From contig JAAFIR010000024.1 of assembly GCA_013297885.1 (NCBI GenBank), positions 1-64,000 on the forward strand: a stretch of 64,000 nt of DNA. Direction: 5' to 3'. Position numbers and translations under genes: made by a program. Shown here in pieces: positions 5,279 to 60,883 of this stretch. This DNA is from Leptospirales bacterium. GTDB taxonomy: Bacteria; Spirochaetota; Leptospiria; Leptospirales; Leptospiraceae. How positions within the stretch are numbered: position 1 is the stretch's first letter; each line of letters opens with the position of its first letter. The notes under the pieces were generated by a model, which was not told the origin of the DNA, did not search any database, and saw only the letters and a list, made by a program, of their open reading frames with translations.

Positions 5279-6928
5279 TCAAGGCACAACTTGTTCTCTA
5301 TTTGGTTCTGGATTAGTTTCAGGAATTTTATTTGGTTCGGGATTTACTCTGATAGAATCAGGGGTTAACCCCTGAGTTGAAGGTTCTTCAACAAATGTTT
5401 TTACAGGTTGAACAATTTCTTTTTGTTGAGGAGGGTTACCTTTATAATCTACAAAGCTAACGAACTCAGGATCAGAAAGCCATTTTTTAAAACTGAAATC
5501 AATTTTAGCTTTGATCCAATAAATTGGTTTTTTTGTGGCAGCTTTAAAAAGTAATTCTTTTGTTTTAATTAAATCATTTCTGTTAGAATAAATCTTTGCA
5601 AGTAAATAATTTGCAGCAGAAAATTCAGGAAGTTTTTCTAAATTTTTTTCAGCACTAGAAAATTTGTTTTGGTAAAAATAATTTTTTCCTAATGCAAAAA
5701 TCAATTTTTTATTTCCGGGTTTTATTTTGGAATAAGGAATTAAATATTTTAAACCTAATTTATATTTTGCTCGATTGGTATAAAAAAAACCACTGATCAA
5801 AAGACTTTCTGCAAATTTATCTGGAAGCCTATTCAAACTAGAATACTCTTTGTTTATCCAACGATTTAATTGAAATAAATTCTTATATCCGATTTTTTTT
5901 TCACCAAGTGCAATATTAGATAAAGATTTATACATCAAACCTTCTTTATTATTTGAATCTTTTTTTAATACTTCTTCAGAAATTTTTCTTGTATAAGCAT
6001 AATCTCCGTTTTCATAGTTTAATCTCATAATCGGAATTAGAGGAGTGAGACTTGGATTAAATTCATATGCTTTGAAATATAAAAATAATGCAGTGTTAGT
6101 GTTTCCTAATTTTTGTTCAGCCTGACCTTGGTTCAAATATAAATAATATAAAAGTTGTTTATCATTGATTTCATCAGAAAGTTTTTTTGCTTTTTCAAAA
6201 TATTCTGAAGCAAGTTTAAAATCATTTAATCGAAGTTTAGTCATTCCAGCTTTATACAAATAATTTTTATTTCCAGGATTGATATTTATTAATTCATTTA
6301 AAAATTTATCTGCTTTTTCAAACTCTTCTTTTTTTATTAAGTTTAAAGCTTGGTTCCATTTTTTTTCTTCGGCGGAATCTTCTTTTTCAACTTCTTCTCT
6401 TTTTGGTTTTGGTTCTTCTTTTCTAATTATGACTTCTTCTTTTTCACGCTCTTTTTCTTTTTTCTCTTCGGGTTTTTTTCTAGAAACTTCATCAACTCTT
6501 GCATAACCTGGATCATTTCCATTATTTGCAGCAGCTTTATCTCTCATCTTCAATGCTTCACGATGATTAGGATCCAACTTCAAAAGTTTATTTGAATAAT
6601 GGGAAACCAAATCCCAATTCCCAGTATATTGGTAATACAATAGAATTTTAACTAAACTAGTTTTTTTATACTTTGCATTTAATTGTAAATCAACTGCTTT
6701 ACGAAACATATTTGTAGCTTTACCAAAATCTTTTTCTGATTCATAAATATAACCCATCAACATATATGGTTCACCATCTGATGGATTTTCTTTTGAATAT
6801 TCAGTAAAAAGTTTTATTGCTTTTTGGAATTGTCTTTGTGCAAAAGCTTTTTTTCCTTCTTTTAATGTTGCAAAAATACTTGTTGAAAAATAGAATAAAA
6901 GTATAACAAAATATAGAATTTTCTTCAT
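5279..6928 (-). CDS. secreted TPR-repeat protein
   Basis: A 549-residue protein with a signal peptide (MKKILYFVILLFYFSTSIFA). Residues about 20-135 hold TPR units (AFAQRQFQKAIKLF, GEPYMLMGYIYESEKDFGKA). A highly charged Glu/Lys/Arg linker spans about 150-195, then more TPR units run to about 480 (WNQALNLIKKEEFEKADKFL, LYKAGMTKLRLNDFKLASEYF). The tail is rich in Pro, Asn and Glu (NPEPNKIPETNPEPN). TPRs are protein-interaction scaffolds; the location is probably periplasmic. It is divergent from the SHOCT lipoprotein and element A. Confidence 0.8.
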   Translation of the reverse strand: MKKILYFVILLFYFSTSIFATLKEGKKAFAQRQFQKAIKLFTEYSKENPSDGEPYMLMGYIYESEKDFGKATNMFRKAVDLQLNAKYKKTSLVKILLYYQYTGNWDLVSHYSNKLLKLDPNHREALKMRDKAAANNGNDPGYARVDEVSRKKPEEKKEKEREKEEVIIRKEEPKPKREEVEKEDSAEEKKWNQALNLIKKEEFEKADKFLNELININPGNKNYLYKAGMTKLRLNDFKLASEYFEKAKKLSDEINDKQLLYYLYLNQGQAEQKLGNTNTALFLYFKAYEFNPSLTPLIPIMRLNYENGDYAYTRKISEEVLKKDSNNKEGLMYKSLSNIALGEKKIGYKNLFQLNRWINKEYSSLNRLPDKFAESLLISGFFYTNRAKYKLGLKYLIPYSKIKPGNKKLIFALGKNYFYQNKFSSAEKNLEKLPEFSAANYLLAKIYSNRNDLIKTKELLFKAATKKPIYWIKAKIDFSFKKWLSDPEFVSFVDYKGNPPQQKEIVQPVKTFVEEPSTQGLTPDSIRVNPEPNKIPETNPEPNREQVVP

Positions 6929-7061
6929 GAAAACTAAACTTAAACAGAATCAATTTTTGAAAAGGATGTTAAAAAATTATTTTAGCGACTACTTCTCAGA
7001 ACACTTTCAAGATATTTATTTTTCTAACTTTTTAAAAGATATAATTTCATCAAAATATTTT

Positions 7062-7181
7062 GGGCGAATTTTTTTTCAAGCAGTAGGAAGACAATGGGTC
7101 TTGACCCACTGCCAAAAGCTTGAAAAAAAAACGGGCTTTCAACTACTTCCGCTGAAGCGGAAACGTTTCAATCCCTTTCGC
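7062..7181 (-). repeat. structured dispersed element, copy A
   Basis: Read on the minus strand: outer-stem arm GCGAA (7181-7177), A, inner-stem GGG, ATTGA, AAC, G; hairpin 1 (TTTCCGCTTCAGCGGAA); TA, GTT, GAAAG, inner-stem partner CCC, G; hairpin 2 in a long T/A-flanked palindrome; outer-stem partner TTCGC, then CC. Hairpin 2 carries a GTGGGTCAAGACCCA-type core that also appears, as GTGGGTTGAAACCCAC, in hairpin 1 of copy B. The element lies directly before the SHOCT lipoprotein gene. Confidence 0.85.
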
Positions 7182-7859
7182 TTGTATTGTTTAATCTTAT
7201 TTGTATTGAACAGTGATTGTAAAACAGTGCAAACAGAAAATTTGATTTATAAATCAGAATCTATTTTAGTATATGAATTAAAATCTTCTTCTGTGGAATT
7301 TAGAAATCCAGAAATTCTTTTTCCAATTTTTTTAGAATTGTACAAATCTAAAGATAAAAAAGAAAAAATAATTTTACTTGAAAACTTTGAAAAAATAATT
7401 CCAATTTTAAATAAAAAAACAAATTATTTAATCATTCAAAAAATAGAAGATTCAATTTCTCCTTATACACGTTTTTTAAGAACTAGTTTTGAATTGAATT
7501 TACAAAAAGAAAATATTGAAATTTATTTTTTTGAAATAGATAAATCATTTAATTTAGGAACTAATATTGAATTTCAAGATTGGGCAGTTTTGCAAAATAC
7601 TGAAAAAAAATGCAATTCATTTCCAAAAGTCTTTTTTGATAAAAAAGGAATGGAATACAAAAAATTGGAAAATTGTAAAAATCAATTTTATTTTCTAGAA
7701 ATTGATAAAGATAAATTTTTTGCACCTGAAACAATCGAAAAAAAAATCAAACCAAGTGCCGAGTTAAGACTTGAAAAATTAAAATTACTTTTAAAAAAAG
7801 GTTTAATTTCCAAAGAAGATTATGAACTAAAAAAAGCAGAAATATTAGGAGAATTATGA
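7182..7859 (+). CDS. SHOCT-domain lipoprotein-like protein
   Basis: The open frame starts at 6927, but its first 85 codons run through element A and overlap the TPR gene start, so they are unlikely to be native. I place the start at the TTG at 7182, the first base after the element. This gives a short hydrophobic leader ending LNSDC, a poor but possible spirochaetal lipobox, and a protein of 225 residues. The middle has no family I recognise. The C terminus (ELRLEKLKLLLKKGLISKE, then EILGEL) is a SHOCT motif. The stop overlaps the rsmE start by 4 nt. A longer form that includes element-encoded residues cannot be excluded. Confidence 0.6.
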   Translation: MYCLILFVLNSDCKTVQTENLIYKSESILVYELKSSSVEFRNPEILFPIFLELYKSKDKKEKIILLENFEKIIPILNKKTNYLIIQKIEDSISPYTRFLRTSFELNLQKENIEIYFFEIDKSFNLGTNIEFQDWAVLQNTEKKCNSFPKVFFDKKGMEYKKLENCKNQFYFLEIDKDKFFAPETIEKKIKPSAELRLEKLKLLLKKGLISKEDYELKKAEILGEL

Positions 7860-8557: not shown

Positions 8558-8747
8558 GCGAAAGTGATTGTAGCGTTTCCTAAGACAGCTGGTAGCTACC
8601 AGCTGTGCAGTGGGTTGAAACCCACTGTCTTGGGAAGTAGCGAAAAGCACGGTTTTTTTACCTAACCCTGTTAGCCTAATAGAGAAGGGAAGGCGGTGTA
8701 ATATTATTCAATTCAAACATAATTGGGTTAGGTGAAAAAATTCGCCC
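8558..8747 (+). repeat. structured dispersed element, copy B
   Basis: Box 1 GCGAAAGTGATTGTAGCG is at 8558-8575. Hairpin 1 is compound: arms AAGACA 8582-8587 and TGTCTT 8626-8631 enclose a 16-bp palindrome at 8588-8603 and CAGTGGGTTGAAACCCACTG at 8608-8627. Box 2 GTAGCGAAAAGCACGG ends at 8652. Hairpin 2 pairs CCTAACCC 8661-8668 with GGGTTAGG 8725-8732. The outer-stem partner TTCGC is at 8741-8745, then CC. The inner stem is GTG/CAC. It lies between convergent rsmE and an outer-membrane-protein gene whose stop codon is 3 nt past its end. Confidence 0.88.
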
Positions 8748-17519: not shown

Positions 17520-17569
17520 AAGTCAAGATTTTTTTTCAGAATTTCCTAGTTTATTCTGGAGATTTAATG

Positions 17570-17679
17570 CGATAGAGATTCAAAATGTCGCTTTTGCGAG
17601 TGCGAAGCACCAGGCATTTTGAAGCTCGGGTCTGTTTTAGAAAAGATCCTTTTTCTACTTCTAAAATTGACATCGCCCA
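17570..17679 (+). repeat. structured dispersed element, copy C
   Basis: Outer stem GCGAT 17570-17574 / ATCGC 17673-17677, then CC. Inner stem GAG/CTC (GATAGAGATT ... GAAGCTCGG). Hairpin 1 pairs CAAAATG 17582-17588 with CATTTTG 17616-17622. Hairpin 2 pairs TTTTAGAA with TTCTAAAA. It lies between the divergent Bfd-like and ppa genes and is the most diverged copy in the box 1 tail. Confidence 0.75.
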
Positions 17680-30470: not shown

Positions 30471-30571
30471 GCGATAGAGATAGTAGCGAAAATCCTTTTG
30501 CGAGAGAAGCGAAGCAAAAGATTGTAGCGGATAGCTCGGTCGCAACTCGTTTACGATGTTGCGAATCGCCC
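30471..30571 (+). repeat. structured dispersed element, copy D
   Basis: Box 1 GCGATAGAGATAGTAGCG at 30471-30488. Hairpin 1 pairs CTTTTGC 30495-30501 with GCAAAAG 30514-30520. Box 2 is GTAGCGGATAGCTCGG. Hairpin 2 pairs CGCAAC 30541-30546 with GTTGCG 30558-30563. Outer partner ATCGC 30565-30569, then CC. Inner stem GAG/CTC. It lies between the convergent antitoxin-like and TonB-receptor genes. Confidence 0.87.
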
Positions 30572-30606
30572 CCATTCTGCATTAATAATTCTAAATTCAA
30601 CATTAT

Positions 30607-33579: not shown

Positions 33580-33720
33580 AATAAAACCTTTTCGTAATAA
33601 AATTGATTTGAATTTGTAATATTTGAAATCAAATTGAACAGTGTTTAATTGTCAATTTAAATTAGAATTTCACAGATAAAATTTTCTATTTGAGAGCAAA
33701 ATTTTTTTTGAGAAAAATAG

Positions 33721-34336
33721 ATAGTTATGCAAAATTTGTTTAGCTTTATAAAAAGGGGAAAGCCTTCCCCTCGCTCCAAAGCTTGCTATCCAAGCTTTTC
33801 CGCTACCCCTTCTCCGAGAAATCAGATAGTTATGCAAAATCAAATAAAATGGCTCAGACTCAACTTTATTTTATAAGGGTCTAAACTGTTAAACTTATTT
33901 GCCTAGTTAGATCAAACGAAATCTAAATAGTTATGCATAATTGGAATTTCTGAAGTTAAAATTTTTTGAAAAAAGGAAGATTAATTTTAAATTAAAAAAT
34001 TGTTTTGGATACTAAAAATTATAGAAGAGCTTTAACTTTTCTGAAAAGGAAAACTTTTATTTTGTTGCGAAATTTTTTTGCTGAGTGAACTTTCTTGTAT
34101 TTGGGAAATTTGCTGCTTTGGAAAACTTTCTGGTATTGTTAAATTGAATAGTTATGCAGAATTTTAAATTCTTGGAAGACTTGGTATTGGATTTTGTAAA
34201 GCTTTGTTGTAAGAATTGATTTGTTTTAAGGGGACTTATTAGCTTTGAACTAAATTTTCTTTTATAAAAAGACTTTTTTTAGATTGTGAGACTTTTTTGT
34301 TTTGTTAAACCCAATAGCTTTCTGAATAGTTATGCA
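33721..34336 (+). repeat. five direct ATAGTTATGCA repeats, left arm of the DUF1564 array
   Basis: Core ATAGTTATGCA occurs at 33721-33731, 33826-33836, 33927-33937, 34148-34158 and 34326-34336. It is mostly preceded by GA or AA and followed by AAAATT, GAATTT or a variant. Start-to-start spacings are 105, 101, 221 and 178 bp. The 800-bp gap from 33580 to 34380 has no credible gene. From about 33950 the plus strand is rich in G and T, with recurring ACTTTCTTG- and GACTTTTTT-like words. Confidence 0.9.
33752..33816. repeat. twin GC-rich hairpins between array repeats 1 and 2
   Basis: GGGGAAAGCCTTCCCC and AAAGCTTGctatcCAAGCTTT are two neighbouring hairpins joined by TCGCTCC and followed by CCGCTACCCC. 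Read on the minus strand the order (GGGGTAGCGG, hairpin, GGAGCGA, hairpin) loosely recalls the structured element, but the outer stem and box 1 are not recognisable. It is a possible degenerate relative only. Confidence 0.4.
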
Positions 34337-34380
34337 AAGTTTTTTTTACTCAAAAAAAACAATTCTTCATTATACAAAGT

Positions 34381-34947
34381 ATGGGGCTAAAAAAAAAAAT
34401 TATTTATAATCAAAATTATAAAAATGATTTTGATACAAAACTTTTATCAGATGGAAAAAAAATCAGTCAAATCACAAGAGCCACAATTCTTGTGCCAGAA
34501 TTTTTATACGATTTCTTTCTGGCACATGGCTCAAGAAAAAGGTCGCGGGAATATTTCAATTTGCTTTTGAAGCGCTATCGTTACATTCTACACACCGATA
34601 AGGGCGAATTTTCTGGTGATTTTAACACTTCTTACCAAGATGAAGGCATGAATTTAAAGGCAAAAACCATTTCTTTAGAATGCGAAACTTGGGCTGAGGT
34701 GAAAGTATACAAGCAACTCACAAATTGGTCTTGTTGCAAAATTATGACTTATCTTTTATATTTGGATTATTTAGGTGTTGGAGAAAATATACCTGCCGAA
34801 TTTGGAAATTTTGTGATCCCGAAAGAGCCAAAATTTTTTCTTTGTAGTAAAATTTATTTTAACACAAAAACTTGGACCTACCATAGAAGATTTTATTATA
34901 GTAGGTTTGACTTTCACGATAGTGAAGAATCTGTTTTGAATAAGTGA
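34381..34947 (+). CDS. DUF1564-like protein
   Basis: A 188-residue soluble protein. The segment ATILVPEFLYDFFLAHGSRK, then YFNLLLKRYRYIL, SYQDEGMNLKAKTISLE, WAEVKVYKQLTNWSCCKIMT and LLYLDYLGVGENIPAEFGNF follows the order and spacing I remember for DUF1564, a multi-copy family known from Leptospira with no assigned function. The match is from memory. The gene is visibly richer in GC codons than its surroundings (gcg, cgc, ggc), as if acquired. No clear ribosome site precedes the ATG. It is the only gene in about 1.9 kb and is flanked by the ATAGTTATGCA array. Confidence 0.65.
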   Translation: MGLKKKIIYNQNYKNDFDTKLLSDGKKISQITRATILVPEFLYDFFLAHGSRKRSREYFNLLLKRYRYILHTDKGEFSGDFNTSYQDEGMNLKAKTISLECETWAEVKVYKQLTNWSCCKIMTYLLYLDYLGVGENIPAEFGNFVIPKEPKFFLCSKIYFNTKTWTYHRRFYYSRFDFHDSEESVLNK

Positions 34948-35000
34948 ATTTTTTTTAATCTGAAAAAATTTTCTGAAATCGACAGAACTTTGAGATACGA

Positions 35001-35497
35001 ATAGTTATGCAGATTTCGGTGAGTTTTTTCGACACTGAAAGATTAATCAGTACAAATCAAGTTCCACAAAGCAAGAAAGTCCAACTCGAAACAGAAAATT
35101 CTCTCTACTCTGAGAATTTTTCTCATCGCAGTAAAATCCCTCCAATACAGCAATGCCTTTTTGAATCTAAAAAAGTTTTTCAATACAACTTTTTTGGAAA
35201 AAAGTCCTACACTCGAATTCCAATTTTGCATAACTATCTGGATTTCAGAAGATTTTTCAATGCAAGAAAGTTTCTCTTTCCAAAAAAAGTTTTCTCACTT
35301 CAAATCTATTACACGAACCTCAGAAATTCCTAGCAAAACAACAAAGTTTAGCAAAACCGATTCAATTTCACAAACACTAGCACTGCCGCAAAAGAGATCG
35401 AAGCGTTATCAAAAAATTGCAACTGCAATTTTTTGATATTAGCTAAGAGCTCGTTTTTTTGTGGGAAGTTATGTCATATGAAATTCTGCTTAACTGT
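35001..35497. repeat. right arm of the DUF1564 array: one direct and two inverted repeats
   Basis: A sixth direct copy is at 35001-35011, 54 nt after the gene stop. Then TGCATAACTAT at 35227-35237 is a perfect inverted copy, and TGCTTAACTGT at 35487-35497 an inverted copy with two changes whose flank (GAATTT when reversed) still matches. The plus strand between about 35040 and 35390 is rich in A and C, the mirror of the left arm, and contains reversed versions of the ACTTTCTTG words. No credible gene lies between 34948 and 35542. Confidence 0.85.
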
Positions 35498-35523
35498 CTA
35501 TTTTTCCCACAAAAAATTTGCCC
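35388..35523 (+). repeat. structured dispersed element, copy F
   Basis: Box 1 GCAAAAGAGATCGAAGCG at 35388-35405. Hairpin 1 is a 14-bp perfect stem (35408-35421 with 35424-35437, 2-nt loop). Box 2 AGCTAAGAGCTCG ends at 35453. Hairpin 2 pairs TGTGGGAA 35460-35467 with TTCCCACA 35504-35511. Outer partner TTTGC 35517-35521, then CC. Inner stem GAG/CTC; third triplet AGC/GCT. The loop of hairpin 2 holds the last array repeat. It lies between convergent genes. Confidence 0.88.
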
Positions 35524-35542
35524 TAAAAAGATTTCAGAAGAA

Positions 35543-36292: not shown

Positions 36293-37623
36293 TGAACAAC
36301 TTCCTCAAAATAACTCTTACCACTTAGACCGATATATTTTTCAAAATCAATTTTTTTTCCCTTTGGTAAAAATGGAAAATTTTCTTTTTTGGGTTCTAGT
36401 CCGTGAAATAAGGAATATATTCCAACAGCAATAGAAACAGCTGTCTTTCTTTTTTTCTTAGTTAAAAAATACATATCTTTATCTGAAGTAATTTCGCCTA
36501 ATTCTAAATATGCGGAAATTGCATTGATAAAAGTTGGAACAGAATAAGTGGAAATATAAGGTCGTAAAATTGGACTTGGTTCAGAATGTTTGTCAGATTC
36601 ATTTGGATTTAGTCTCAAACCATATTGTAAAAATCTCAAAATTTCTGAACTAGCATAATGATTATCTCCTCCATAACCTTCTAAGCCTCCTTCTCTTCGC
36701 ATTAATTCCAATTTAGATTTTTCTCTTTCCCAAAATTTTCCTGTAGCCCGAAAACCTTTGTGTGAAATGGAATATGGTCCAGTTTTATCTTTGATTCTTT
36801 GTTCCCAACCTTCAGAATCTTTATAACTCCATGTTATCATATTGTAACGATAACCTTCAAATGCAGAACGGTCTGTATCTTTTCCATCCTTTGTGGGCCA
36901 GTAACCGTTAAAATAAATCCAAGTATCACCAACTGCATTTTCGAATCGATTCCAAGAGTCTTTTGAAATTAACCAATTTTTCCATTCTAGTTTTTCAAAC
37001 TCAGATCGAGATTCATTTCCTTCAGAAATTTTTTTTAACAAATTAAAAACTGGATATGGTGGTGCGATAACAGCTCCCATTCCTGATGCACCAGGACCAC
37101 CATTCATTGAGTTAATATGAAGTGATAAAACTAAATGTGGTTTTTCTTTATTCATAAATGAAATACGACCCAAATTATTTTTTCCAGTTTTATTATCTGG
37201 AAAATCATAAAGTCTATATTTTGCATTTTTATCATCTTTAGCTCTAAATTTATTATCTTTGTAAGAGTCGGTTCTTGTCATTATAGAATCAATTTCAATC
37301 CAAGGCGATTCAGTGTCCGAAAATTGTTTTATATAAGATTGAAATTTTTTAAAACCTTTTTCTGTTTTGGTGAGTTGTAAAATTTCATGAACTTCTTTTC
37401 CAACTTCCAAAACAATTTCCATTTCTGTTCTGTTTTTATATCTTGCACCGTCTTTGTAATTTTCAATAAATCGTTGGTTTATAGTATCAAATTTATCACC
37501 TAAAAACGCAACTTCATCAACTTTGACACCACCGTGACCTGGATCAACTACTACTTTGAATTTTTTGATTGGACCAGAAAAAATAGAAATTGAAAAAACA
37601 AAAAAGATAAATTTAAAAATCAT
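36289..37623 (-). CDS. N-acetylmuramoyl-L-alanine amidase-like protein
   Basis: A 444-residue exported protein (signal MIFKFIFFVFSISIFS). The Amidase_3 zinc motifs are VVVDPGHGG (His30), NRTEMEIVLEVG (Glu near 67-69) and LVLSLHINSMNG (His near 172). These enzymes cut the sugar-peptide bond of peptidoglycan in growth and cell separation. It is longer than most, with a large insert between the Glu and the second His and a 250-residue C-terminal region of unknown role, so catalytic identity is likely but not certain. Confidence 0.75.
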   Translation of the reverse strand: MIFKFIFFVFSISIFSGPIKKFKVVVDPGHGGVKVDEVAFLGDKFDTINQRFIENYKDGARYKNRTEMEIVLEVGKEVHEILQLTKTEKGFKKFQSYIKQFSDTESPWIEIDSIMTRTDSYKDNKFRAKDDKNAKYRLYDFPDNKTGKNNLGRISFMNKEKPHLVLSLHINSMNGGPGASGMGAVIAPPYPVFNLLKKISEGNESRSEFEKLEWKNWLISKDSWNRFENAVGDTWIYFNGYWPTKDGKDTDRSAFEGYRYNMITWSYKDSEGWEQRIKDKTGPYSISHKGFRATGKFWEREKSKLELMRREGGLEGYGGDNHYASSEILRFLQYGLRLNPNESDKHSEPSPILRPYISTYSVPTFINAISAYLELGEITSDKDMYFLTKKKRKTAVSIAVGIYSLFHGLEPKKENFPFLPKGKKIDFEKYIGLSGKSYFEEVVQ

Positions 37624-48390: not shown

Positions 48391-48524
48391 CTTCTAAAAA
48401 TTAAACTAGCCCGAAGTTTTCAATCAAAACTTAAATCTATAAATTTCTCTTTTCTGTTTTTTTAAAAATTGATTGAAATTTAAATAAAATACTTTCAAAC
48501 TTATTAAAATTTTGAATCAGGTCA

Positions 48525-48616
48525 GGGTGAATTTTTGCTCAGCAAAAAACACGCTCGCCTCTCTGGTCAAAAAAATTGTATCCACAATTTTTTGACCCCG
48601 AGTTGATCGTTTTCAC
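48525..48616 (-). repeat. structured dispersed element, copy H
   Basis: Minus-strand reading: box 1 GTGAAAACGATCAACTCG (48616-48599). Hairpin 1 pairs 48597-48584 with 48579-48565. Box 2 is AGAGAGGCGAGCGTG. Hairpin 2 is TTTTTGCTgAGCAAAAA (48548-48532). Outer partner TTCAC, then CC. All three stems pair with triplets or arms not seen in the other copies: GTGAA/TTCAC, ACG/CGT, CTC/GAG. It lies 100 bp from copy I in opposite orientation. Confidence 0.85.
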
Positions 48617-48715
48617 GTACTTTTTTTTATTAAGAAACTTTTCTAAACTTAGAAATCTCTTACACTTTTATAATATTCTATATGCTCCAATTAAATTGAT
48701 TTTCGGAAATAATAT

Positions 48716-48821
48716 GCGAAAGTGATTGAAGCGTTTCCTTCAACTTCAACCTTTAGGGTGAGGTTGAAGGAAGTAACTGAAAGCACGCTTCGCTGGTTTT
48801 TGCTTTAGCAAAAATTCGCCC
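48716..48821 (+). repeat. structured dispersed element, copy I
   Basis: Box 1 GCGAAAGTGATTGAAGCG at 48716-48733. Hairpin 1 (about 48735-48771) pairs CCTTCAACTTCAACC with GGTGAGGTTGAAGG imperfectly. Box 2 is GTAACTGAAAGCACG. Hairpin 2 TTTTTGCTttAGCAAAAA at 48797-48814 is nearly the same as that of copy H. Outer partner TTCGC 48815-48819, then CC. Inner stem GTG/CAC. With copy H it fills most of the 508-bp gap between the divergent hisZ and PAS-sensor genes. Confidence 0.88.
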
Positions 48822-48898
48822 AAATTAAAAATAGAAAATTTCTTTTCTTACATTCTAAAAGCATTGGGATAGGTTTATTCAGCCGAAAATAAAATTAG

Positions 48899-56791: not shown

Positions 56792-57233
56792 GTGAAAAAA
56801 GAATCTATTCAAAATTTTGTAACTATCGGAATCCAAGCTGGGGATTCTTCTTCTGTAGTTGTTAGCGATATTATTTTAAATTTAAGAAAACTATTTAATG
56901 AAAAAATGGATAAAAGATATATTGAAGAAGTAGATGAATTTTCTTTTGTATTAAGAATTGATGGTGAATTTTCGTTTTGGAATTTTGAAGTTACGAATCA
57001 GAAAAAAAGATAAATATATAACAATTGATATTGGAGTTACAAAAAGAATCTGGCAAAACTTTGAATTTAATGAACTAAAAGAATATCTCAGTGATTGCAT
57101 TTTAGATGGATTTAATCAATTTATAAAAAAATTTAAAAAAGAAAAATTTTTAGTTAAAGAAGAATTATTAATACAAGATGTAAAAAAAATTTTAGAGATT
57201 TGGCGAGATATTCCAAACACAGTGCGAAAGTGA
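56792..57233 (+). pseudogene. hypothetical gene split by a frameshift at an A7 run
   Basis: GTG at 56792 opens a 73-codon frame ending at TAA 57011-57013. The frame one base ahead continues from the A7 run at 57002-57008 to TGA at 57231-57233. With six As instead of seven the two join into one 146-residue protein (EFSFVLRIDGEFSFW into YITIDIGVTKRIWQN) with continuous character. No family recognised. The explanation may be a real mutation, a sequencing error, or transcript slippage on the A run. The stop codon lies in box 1 of element J, so the original C terminus may be lost. Confidence 0.6.
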
Positions 57234-57345
57234 TTGAAGCGGGGTCATTATTTTGTGAATACAAAATAATGACCAGAGCGAAAAGCACGGTTTTTTATTT
57301 GTAGGTCAAGCATATATGCTTGACCTACAAATAAAAAATTCGCCC
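57224..57345 (+). repeat. structured dispersed element, copy J
   Basis: Box 1 GCGAAAGTGATTGAAGCG at 57224-57241. Hairpin 1 is a 14-bp perfect stem (57243-57256 / 57261-57274, 4-nt loop). Box 2 AGAGCGAAAAGCACGG at 57275-57290. Hairpin 2 is a perfect 48-bp palindrome (57291-57338, 24-bp arms, no loop). Outer partner TTCGC 57339-57343, then CC. Inner stem GTG/CAC. This is the cleanest copy. It supplies the stop codon of the preceding gene. Confidence 0.92.
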
Positions 57346-57430
57346 AAATTTAACCCAACAAAATGACTTGAATAAATATTTCTATTGGCATTTATTGAAT
57401 GAGATTCTATTTATTGGAGATTTCTAATTC

Positions 57431-60722: not shown

Positions 60723-60791
60723 AAAATATCCTCTACTCTAAATTTCAATTTCGCATAAAAAAAAGAAAGTCATTTTTTAGTTTTTATTTTT

Positions 60792-60883
60792 GGGAGTTCC
60801 CCCTTTGGGGTCGGGCTTTTCGCTACTTCTGAATCGGCGGGCTAAAGACCGCCGCTATTCAGAAACGCTTCAATCCCTAACTT
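60792..60883 (-). repeat. structured dispersed element, copy K
   Basis: Minus-strand reading: box 1 AAGTTAGGGATTGAAGCG (60883-60866). Hairpin 1 nests TTCTGAAT/ATTCAGAA around GCGGCGG-type arms. Box 2 is GTAGCGAAAAGCCCGA. Hairpin 2 is CCCCaaaGGGG. Outer partner AACTC (60798-60794), then CC. The outer stem AAGTT/AACTC keeps 4 of 5 pairs although all five bases differ from other copies; the inner stem is GGG/CCC. Confidence 0.78.

Follow-up and report, generated by a model that had tools for sequence, protein, structure and literature searches.

The window, by which we mean the whole 64-kb stretch of DNA analysed here, harbors a single gene set within an array of short repeats, and the genes neighbouring this unit encode a TonB-dependent receptor, an unknown protein and an amidase-like protein. 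The repeat, ATAGTTATGCA, occurs as six direct copies on the plus strand, at 33721–33731, 33826–33836, 33927–33937, 34148–34158, 34326–34336 and 35001–35011, and as two inverted copies on the minus strand, one exact (35227–35237) and one with two changes (ACAGTTAAGCA, 35487–35497). The original prediction had placed all eight at exactly these coordinates and had seen one gene-bearing block among them; the only convincing gene is indeed the one at 34381–34947 (plus strand), which encodes a 188-residue member of the DUF1564 family (PF07600; E 3.4e-11; 43.6 bits against a curated Pfam cut-off of 25). The fifth direct repeat ends 45 bp before its start codon, and the sixth, which reads ATAGTTATTCA in homologous copies, lies shortly 3’ of the gene. 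At 31.6% GC, the gene is richer than the left array (26.5%) but not, as had been supposed of its surroundings in general, than the right block (32.2%). By eye, the repeats fall into a terminal type, in which AG is followed by ATAGTTATGCAAAA and which lies at or near the ends (direct repeats 1 and 2), and an internal type preceded by (G/A)A (direct repeats 3, 4 and 5).

All seven exact copies of ATAGTTATGCA in the window belong to this locus, where they are spread over 1.5 kb; a first-order Markov model predicts 0.035 for the entire window, both strands included, and a reversed control motif is absent from it. Across the source genome (4.6 Mb in 72 contigs), 48 copies were counted versus 2 of the reversed control. 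These copies form oriented, non-random groups, and many of them point outwards from the terminal 400 or so bases of a contig, as is typical of a repeat that interrupts assembly. Wherever several copies are assembled around a gene, that gene is a DUF1564 of one subfamily, and the random scatter without a DUF1564 link that would have spoken against the association did not appear in the genome search. However, the array is present at only 3 of the 22 DUF1564 genes of this genome, and nothing comparable in the way of short repeats was found at the other 19.

Copies of the same unit recur throughout the genome. Ten left halves (C1, C2, C10, C18, C19, C27, C33, C53, C55 and C69) and ten right halves (C16, C22, the end of C23, C29, C30, C31, C44, C52, C56 and C66), mostly 95–99% identical, end contigs at unrelated loci, and the left half on C19 includes a complete DUF1564 gene. 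The flanks beyond the shared part are unrelated among copies, which indicates that the unit has dispersed; in having multiple near-identical copies at unrelated loci, it resembles an insertion sequence or transposon. C11 holds a whole, two-ended and somewhat older copy (about 83–90% identical); older again is the copy in the window, at about 74–80%. The order in C11 is Flavo-1 hairpin, repeat array, DUF1564, inverted repeats and inverted Flavo-1; a composite of C19 and C44 likewise reads left hairpin end, direct repeats, DUF1564, degenerate direct repeat, inverted repeat and right hairpin end. Between the window and a recent copy, the motif positions are 90% identical versus 74% for other noncoding sequence, with three sites untouched: direct repeats 3 and 4 and the inverted repeat at 35227 are intact at the homologous positions in recent copies, the latter two also in C11, and the flanks of the inverted repeat are only 68% identical. 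Overall, the window locus is an old representative of a dispersed element, about 1.5–1.8 kb long and probably mobile. The suggestion that the array is part of a locus with a mobile or regulatory character and a link to DUF1564 was borne out, and the repeats proposed to delimit about 1.8 kb are real, but the element reaches beyond them, to about 33690–35524.

The ends of the element are hairpins. To our knowledge, the Flavo-1 family (RF01705) has had no assigned function since 2010. It is listed as a candidate RNA of Bacteroidetes (Rfam; Weinberg et al. 2010, PMC2864571), and in Flavobacterium psychrophilum its matches lie sense or antisense to transcribed regions without preference, many of them outside such regions altogether (PMC9723704). 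Read inwards, the sequence shared by the ends of the element runs CGGGCTTTTCGCTAC, hairpin, ACGCTACAATCCC, which is Flavo-1 in reverse. The right ends on C16, C30, C31 and C44 reach the curated RF01705 score of 42 bits; in C11, DUF1564 is enclosed by a minus-strand match at 35108 (52.3 bits) and a plus-strand match at 36669 (38.8 bits). About 70 copies in the genome score at least 42 bits, with solo copies up to 61 bits. These ends were recognised with RF01705 in other copies of the element before the right end of the window copy was. An Rfam search of the window locus itself gave chance matches only, and reported no Flavo-1 at its right end even at E 0.5, where only an extended model finds it.

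This extended model, R1, adds an outer stem and a second hairpin and was built from an alignment of 15 diverse copies. In the alignment, 93% of cells are paired, two-sided changes occur in 18 of 24 pairs, and covariation is 0.577 versus 0.181 when shuffled and at most 0.219 with slid partners. Because the sequences were trimmed by reference to the outer stem and the core triplet, the pairing of these two is biased upwards by design; the inner core pairs played no part in trimming and are 100% paired too. An independent count found a fully paired core triplet in 29 of 30 solo copies (at most 21 in 5,000 shuffles), and these triplets are of several kinds: GTG/CAC, GGG/CCC, ACG/CGT, AGG/CCT and GAG/CTC. 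G-U pairs are nearly absent from the stems, which would fit selection on DNA. The end structures share with Rfam Flavo-1 a core stem with symmetrical internal loops and a variable hairpin; unlike it, they have two variable hairpins and an additional outer stem, occur as inverted pairs at element ends, and appear to behave as DNA.

In the window, the right end is an extended Flavo-1 at 35388–35524 (plus strand) with outer stem GCAAA/TTTGC, core GAG/CTC and two variable hairpins, the degenerate inverted repeat lying in the loop of the second; it scores 62.8 bits (E 5.2e-17) and is itself one of the 15 model members. The probable left end, at 33690–33825 (minus strand), is degenerate and Flavo-1-like. 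Its outer arm GCAAAATTTTTTTTGAG is followed by direct repeat 1 in a hairpin loop and then by CCCCTCGCTCC, a hairpin and TCCGCTACCCC, a layout that matches the clear left end of C11. R1 scores it at only 12.1 bits (E 0.27, 33693–33730), so that we assign it, with low confidence, by homology and by eye, and regard it as the weakest part of the map.

With the element delimited in this way, the individual repeats can be weighed as crossover sites. The original prediction offered a cassette-type locus as one reading, and the array does resemble an integron cassette array in that repeats of the same orientation partition blocks; moreover, the blocks differ in content, and in the recent copies C18 and C55 the shared sequence starts either at a repeat or no more than about ten bases from one. 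Yet the eight other left junctions lie elsewhere, and the direct repeats sit inside one dispersed unit whose ends are the inverted Flavo-1 hairpins, located at or around its outermost repeats. The prediction had itself doubted the integron and DnaA-box readings, with good reason: the core departs from the GTTRRRY consensus at position 5 (GTTATGC, with T), the repeats are not attC palindromes, and no IntI gene lies nearby. The tyrosine recombinase gene for which it called was found neither in the element nor beside it. An integron-like or other site-specific cassette array is therefore strongly disfavoured and, in our estimate, very improbable.

The remaining evidence on how copies arise is mixed. 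Among nine two-ended copies, no target-site duplication was detected above chance (mean flank match of 2.67 bases versus 2.90 in shuffled pairs). IS200/IS605-type and REP elements likewise leave no target-site duplication; its lack is neutral for HUH-type elements, yet it removes the usual proof of insertion. All recent copies in the assembly are half-elements, which leaves left and right halves without assignable partners. At the window locus, relatives differ in neighbouring gene order, so that an empty site could not be recognised there. The end hairpins are mosaic, with one hairpin shared by C27 and C69 and the other by C69 and C19. Such new combinations of variable hairpins suggest that ends are often exchanged or rebuilt, and recombination among resident copies may account for part of the spread. 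In one Flavo-1-ended DUF1564 element (L066; C69:24600–26500), apparent remnants of another, broken gene can be seen by eye between the left end and DUF1564.

R1 also places Flavo-1 beside DUF1564 genes in general. At 13 of 20 DUF1564 loci of the genome (six of them model members and seven not), a match lies downstream on the same strand, compared with about 1.5 of 20 estimated from the window density within about 1.1 kb; at 4 of 20 loci a match lies upstream on the opposite strand, and L033 and L049 have both ends. Similarly, 210 kb around DUF1564 genes in sister genomes within the genus (Leptospiraceae bacterium UBA2033 and related MAGs) yielded six matches, none used in the model. Four of these lie 115–150 bp past the DUF1564 stop on the same strand, and one sister locus (L154) has a second, opposite-strand match upstream, and hence both ends. 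The unextended Rfam model, with 8 matches in 65 kb of DUF1564 loci versus 4 in the 64-kb window as control, was not clearly above background; the link becomes clear only through the extended model together with the fixed position and strand. Among the loci examined, a set partly chosen around DUF1564, no gene but DUF1564 is broadly recurrent next to Flavo-1. We conclude that two long-unexplained families, Flavo-1 and DUF1564, are linked parts of one probable mobile element.

DUF1564 occurs in 18 of 296 genomes of the phylum, all 18 in the same order; it is multi-copy in most Leptospiraceae searched, with up to 49 genes per genome. R1 at E 1e-5 matches 6 of 30 genomes of the order, overwhelmingly the source genome. 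The array-type DUF1564 protein was not found in named genomes, and no DUF1564 was found on plasmids or phages. The literature searched describes no tested function for the family, although one PF07600 protein carries the UniProt annotation “mobile element protein”, given without functional evidence, in a recent Leptospira paper (PMC12457778). Searches of NCBIfam and PHROGs returned nothing for the window protein except one insignificant PHROG. An AlphaFold2 model, computed from the window protein and 35 relatives, predicts two beta-alpha-alpha units (strand 32–39 with helices 40–49 and 55–72; strand 92–99 with helices 101–114 and 118–130) and a C-terminal beta hairpin. Confidence is moderate overall (pLDDT 67), with 81–91 in the cores, and DUF1564 is accordingly predicted to be a tandem ribbon-helix-helix (RHH) DNA-binding protein with both units in one chain.

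The best PDB matches to this model come from F-plasmid relaxosome entries, namely chains E, F and G (Foldseek E 8.2e-3, probability 0.99; Z 7.2, below 8, over 97 residues at 11–12% identity), which we read as TraY from their tandem fold and chain lengths; a weaker match is the archaeal-virus regulator AvtR. A profile search of PDB sequences gave no significant match and did not return TraY. TraY of the F plasmid is a monomer whose single chain adopts an RHH-dimer fold; three copies bind at oriT, two direct and one inverted (PMC12117103). The resemblance would thus extend from the predicted single-chain tandem fold to the asymmetric direct and inverted sites beside hairpin-prone DNA. The differences are that DUF1564 has a C-terminal beta hairpin and no significant sequence similarity to TraY was found, that the sites here are 100–680 bp apart rather than contiguous, and that the setting is chromosomal and multi-copy, with no relaxase or conjugation genes.

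On balance we favour, as the likelier though far from certain account, a mobile element with inverted Flavo-1 ends whose TraY-like DUF1564 binds the ATAGTTATGCA repeats and which is cut in trans by a separate enzyme. The element is dispersed, keeps its architecture, and conserves both its gene and its sites. As a single-chain tandem RHH protein, DUF1564 would present an asymmetric DNA-reading surface, and it most likely binds the non-palindromic ATAGTTATGCA sites, direct and inverted, beside the ends; such a surface would suit target sites that are not palindromic and recur in both orientations, and lineages that have different DUF1564 subfamilies also have different motifs. If it acts as TraY does at oriT, bound DUF1564 might bend the ends, recruit a cutting enzyme or repress its own gene. 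Hairpin ends, no target-site duplication and no nuclease gene in the element together suggest cutting in trans, by an enzyme that would recognise the folded ends and may be an HUH-type nuclease.

Other readings of the same parts deserve consideration. The element could be a non-autonomous, MITE-like transposon served by a conventional transposase elsewhere, with DUF1564 as a passenger and the repeats as subterminal transposase sites. DUF1564 is the only gene of the element, no transposase gene or tie to one was found, and the positions invariant across 25 DUF1564 proteins look structural, with no recognisable catalytic residues among them; gene-less miniature copies are also common. Against a passenger role, DUF1564 is under strong purifying selection (dN/dS of about 0.11–0.12 among array-type copies), is multi-copy in most Leptospiraceae searched, and is the one gene broadly recurrent beside Flavo-1, albeit in loci partly chosen around it. 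We consider this reading improbable.

Slightly less improbable, but still unlikely, is that the repeats form an operator array, DUF1564 being an ordinary autorepressor that acts upstream of its own gene, with spread by recombination or duplication and any mobility incidental. RHH proteins are commonly autorepressors. The relaxosome protein MobC of plasmid RA3 is reported to combine a relaxosome role with autorepression (PMC4175270). Support for operators also comes from a second genus of the family (G006), whose genome has 49 DUF1564 genes. There, a different 13-mer, TGTGGGAACTCCA, occurs in 94 copies (control 0; one match across seven other genomes), and it precedes 23 of 34 tested DUF1564 genes, only upstream and on the same strand, at 171–581 bp (0.34 expected by chance; maximum of 4 in 2,000 random draws). 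Many further copies precede apparently decayed DUF1564 genes. No Flavo-1 was found near these G006 loci, which indicates that repeat array and Flavo-1 are not always together. In the source genome, on the other hand, ATAGTTATGCA also lies 3’ of the gene, inverted, and at the element ends, and the presence of ten near-identical copies at unrelated loci calls for active dispersal. With ATAGTTATGCA in one genus and TGTGGGAACTCCA in the other, the pairing of a repeat with DUF1564 is a recurrent design with lineage-specific sequence, a recurrence that also speaks for the favoured reading.

Three G006 loci (L138, L141 and L145) feature tandem 66–67 bp units that combine TGTGGGAACTCCA with a TTTTGCAC..GTGCAAAA hairpin, with no adjoining DUF1564 gene. 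In another genome (L131 of G003), a DUF1564 gene lies between 60-bp direct repeats (1081–1140 and 2087–2146; 93% identical), possibly the footprint of an insertion or a local duplication.

Returning to the favoured element with its enzyme in trans, a close counterpart in organisation is the REPIN/RAYT system, which likewise consists of inverted doublets of palindromic units in many dispersed copies, with a single associated protein family and gene-less miniatures (PMC3116915). The protein here is a tandem RHH rather than a Y1 HUH transposase, and the units are about 100–170 bp with two variable hairpins. No nuclease tied to the Flavo-1 ends was found. The only Y1 transposase gene of the genome (C42:66004) is flanked by CAGTGGGT..ACCCACTG palindromes with no Flavo-1 seen immediately beside it; no RAYT linked to the units was found, and this gene as the mobiliser of Flavo-1 is unsupported.

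A broader proposal, which we put forward tentatively and hold to be somewhat more doubtful than probable, is that Flavo-1, rather than being an RNA gene, forms the folded DNA ends of a bacterial mobile-element class of its own, whose Leptospirales members carry only a TraY-like DUF1564 reading a lineage-specific repeat and move without a recognisable transposase of their own. The link between Flavo-1 and DUF1564 itself gives both families a testable role. It would also reveal how a TraY-like protein with its own repeat sites can work for a chromosomal mobile element, and would reclassify some or all of an Rfam family as DNA instead of RNA. The link further accounts for a major repeat load of the genome: R1 matches 148 of 150 candidates scored, and its nine strong matches in the 64-kb window extrapolate to several hundred copies genome-wide.

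Finally, many of these copies stand apart from DUF1564. Several inverted Flavo-1 pairs with a short interior form gene-less mini-elements. One such miniature pair of extended Flavo-1, with about 100 bp between its members and no gene, lies at 48524–48822 in the window and is probably a deleted relative of the DUF1564 element. Other solo copies in the window are found at 7061–7181, 8558–8678, 17569–17679, 30471–30572, 57224–57346 and 60791–60883. Inverted pairs that enclose ordinary genes (7061 and 8558 in the window; C30; C26) look like chance neighbours. The copy at 7061 is inside the 5’ part of an ORF (6927–7859) and may have altered the start of a lipoprotein gene. In the copy at 8558–8678, and likewise at L073 and L095, the Flavo-1 hairpins contain the same CAGTGGGT..ACCCACTG palindromes that flank the RAYT-like Y1 gene (L111), as if REP units insert into Flavo-1 loops.
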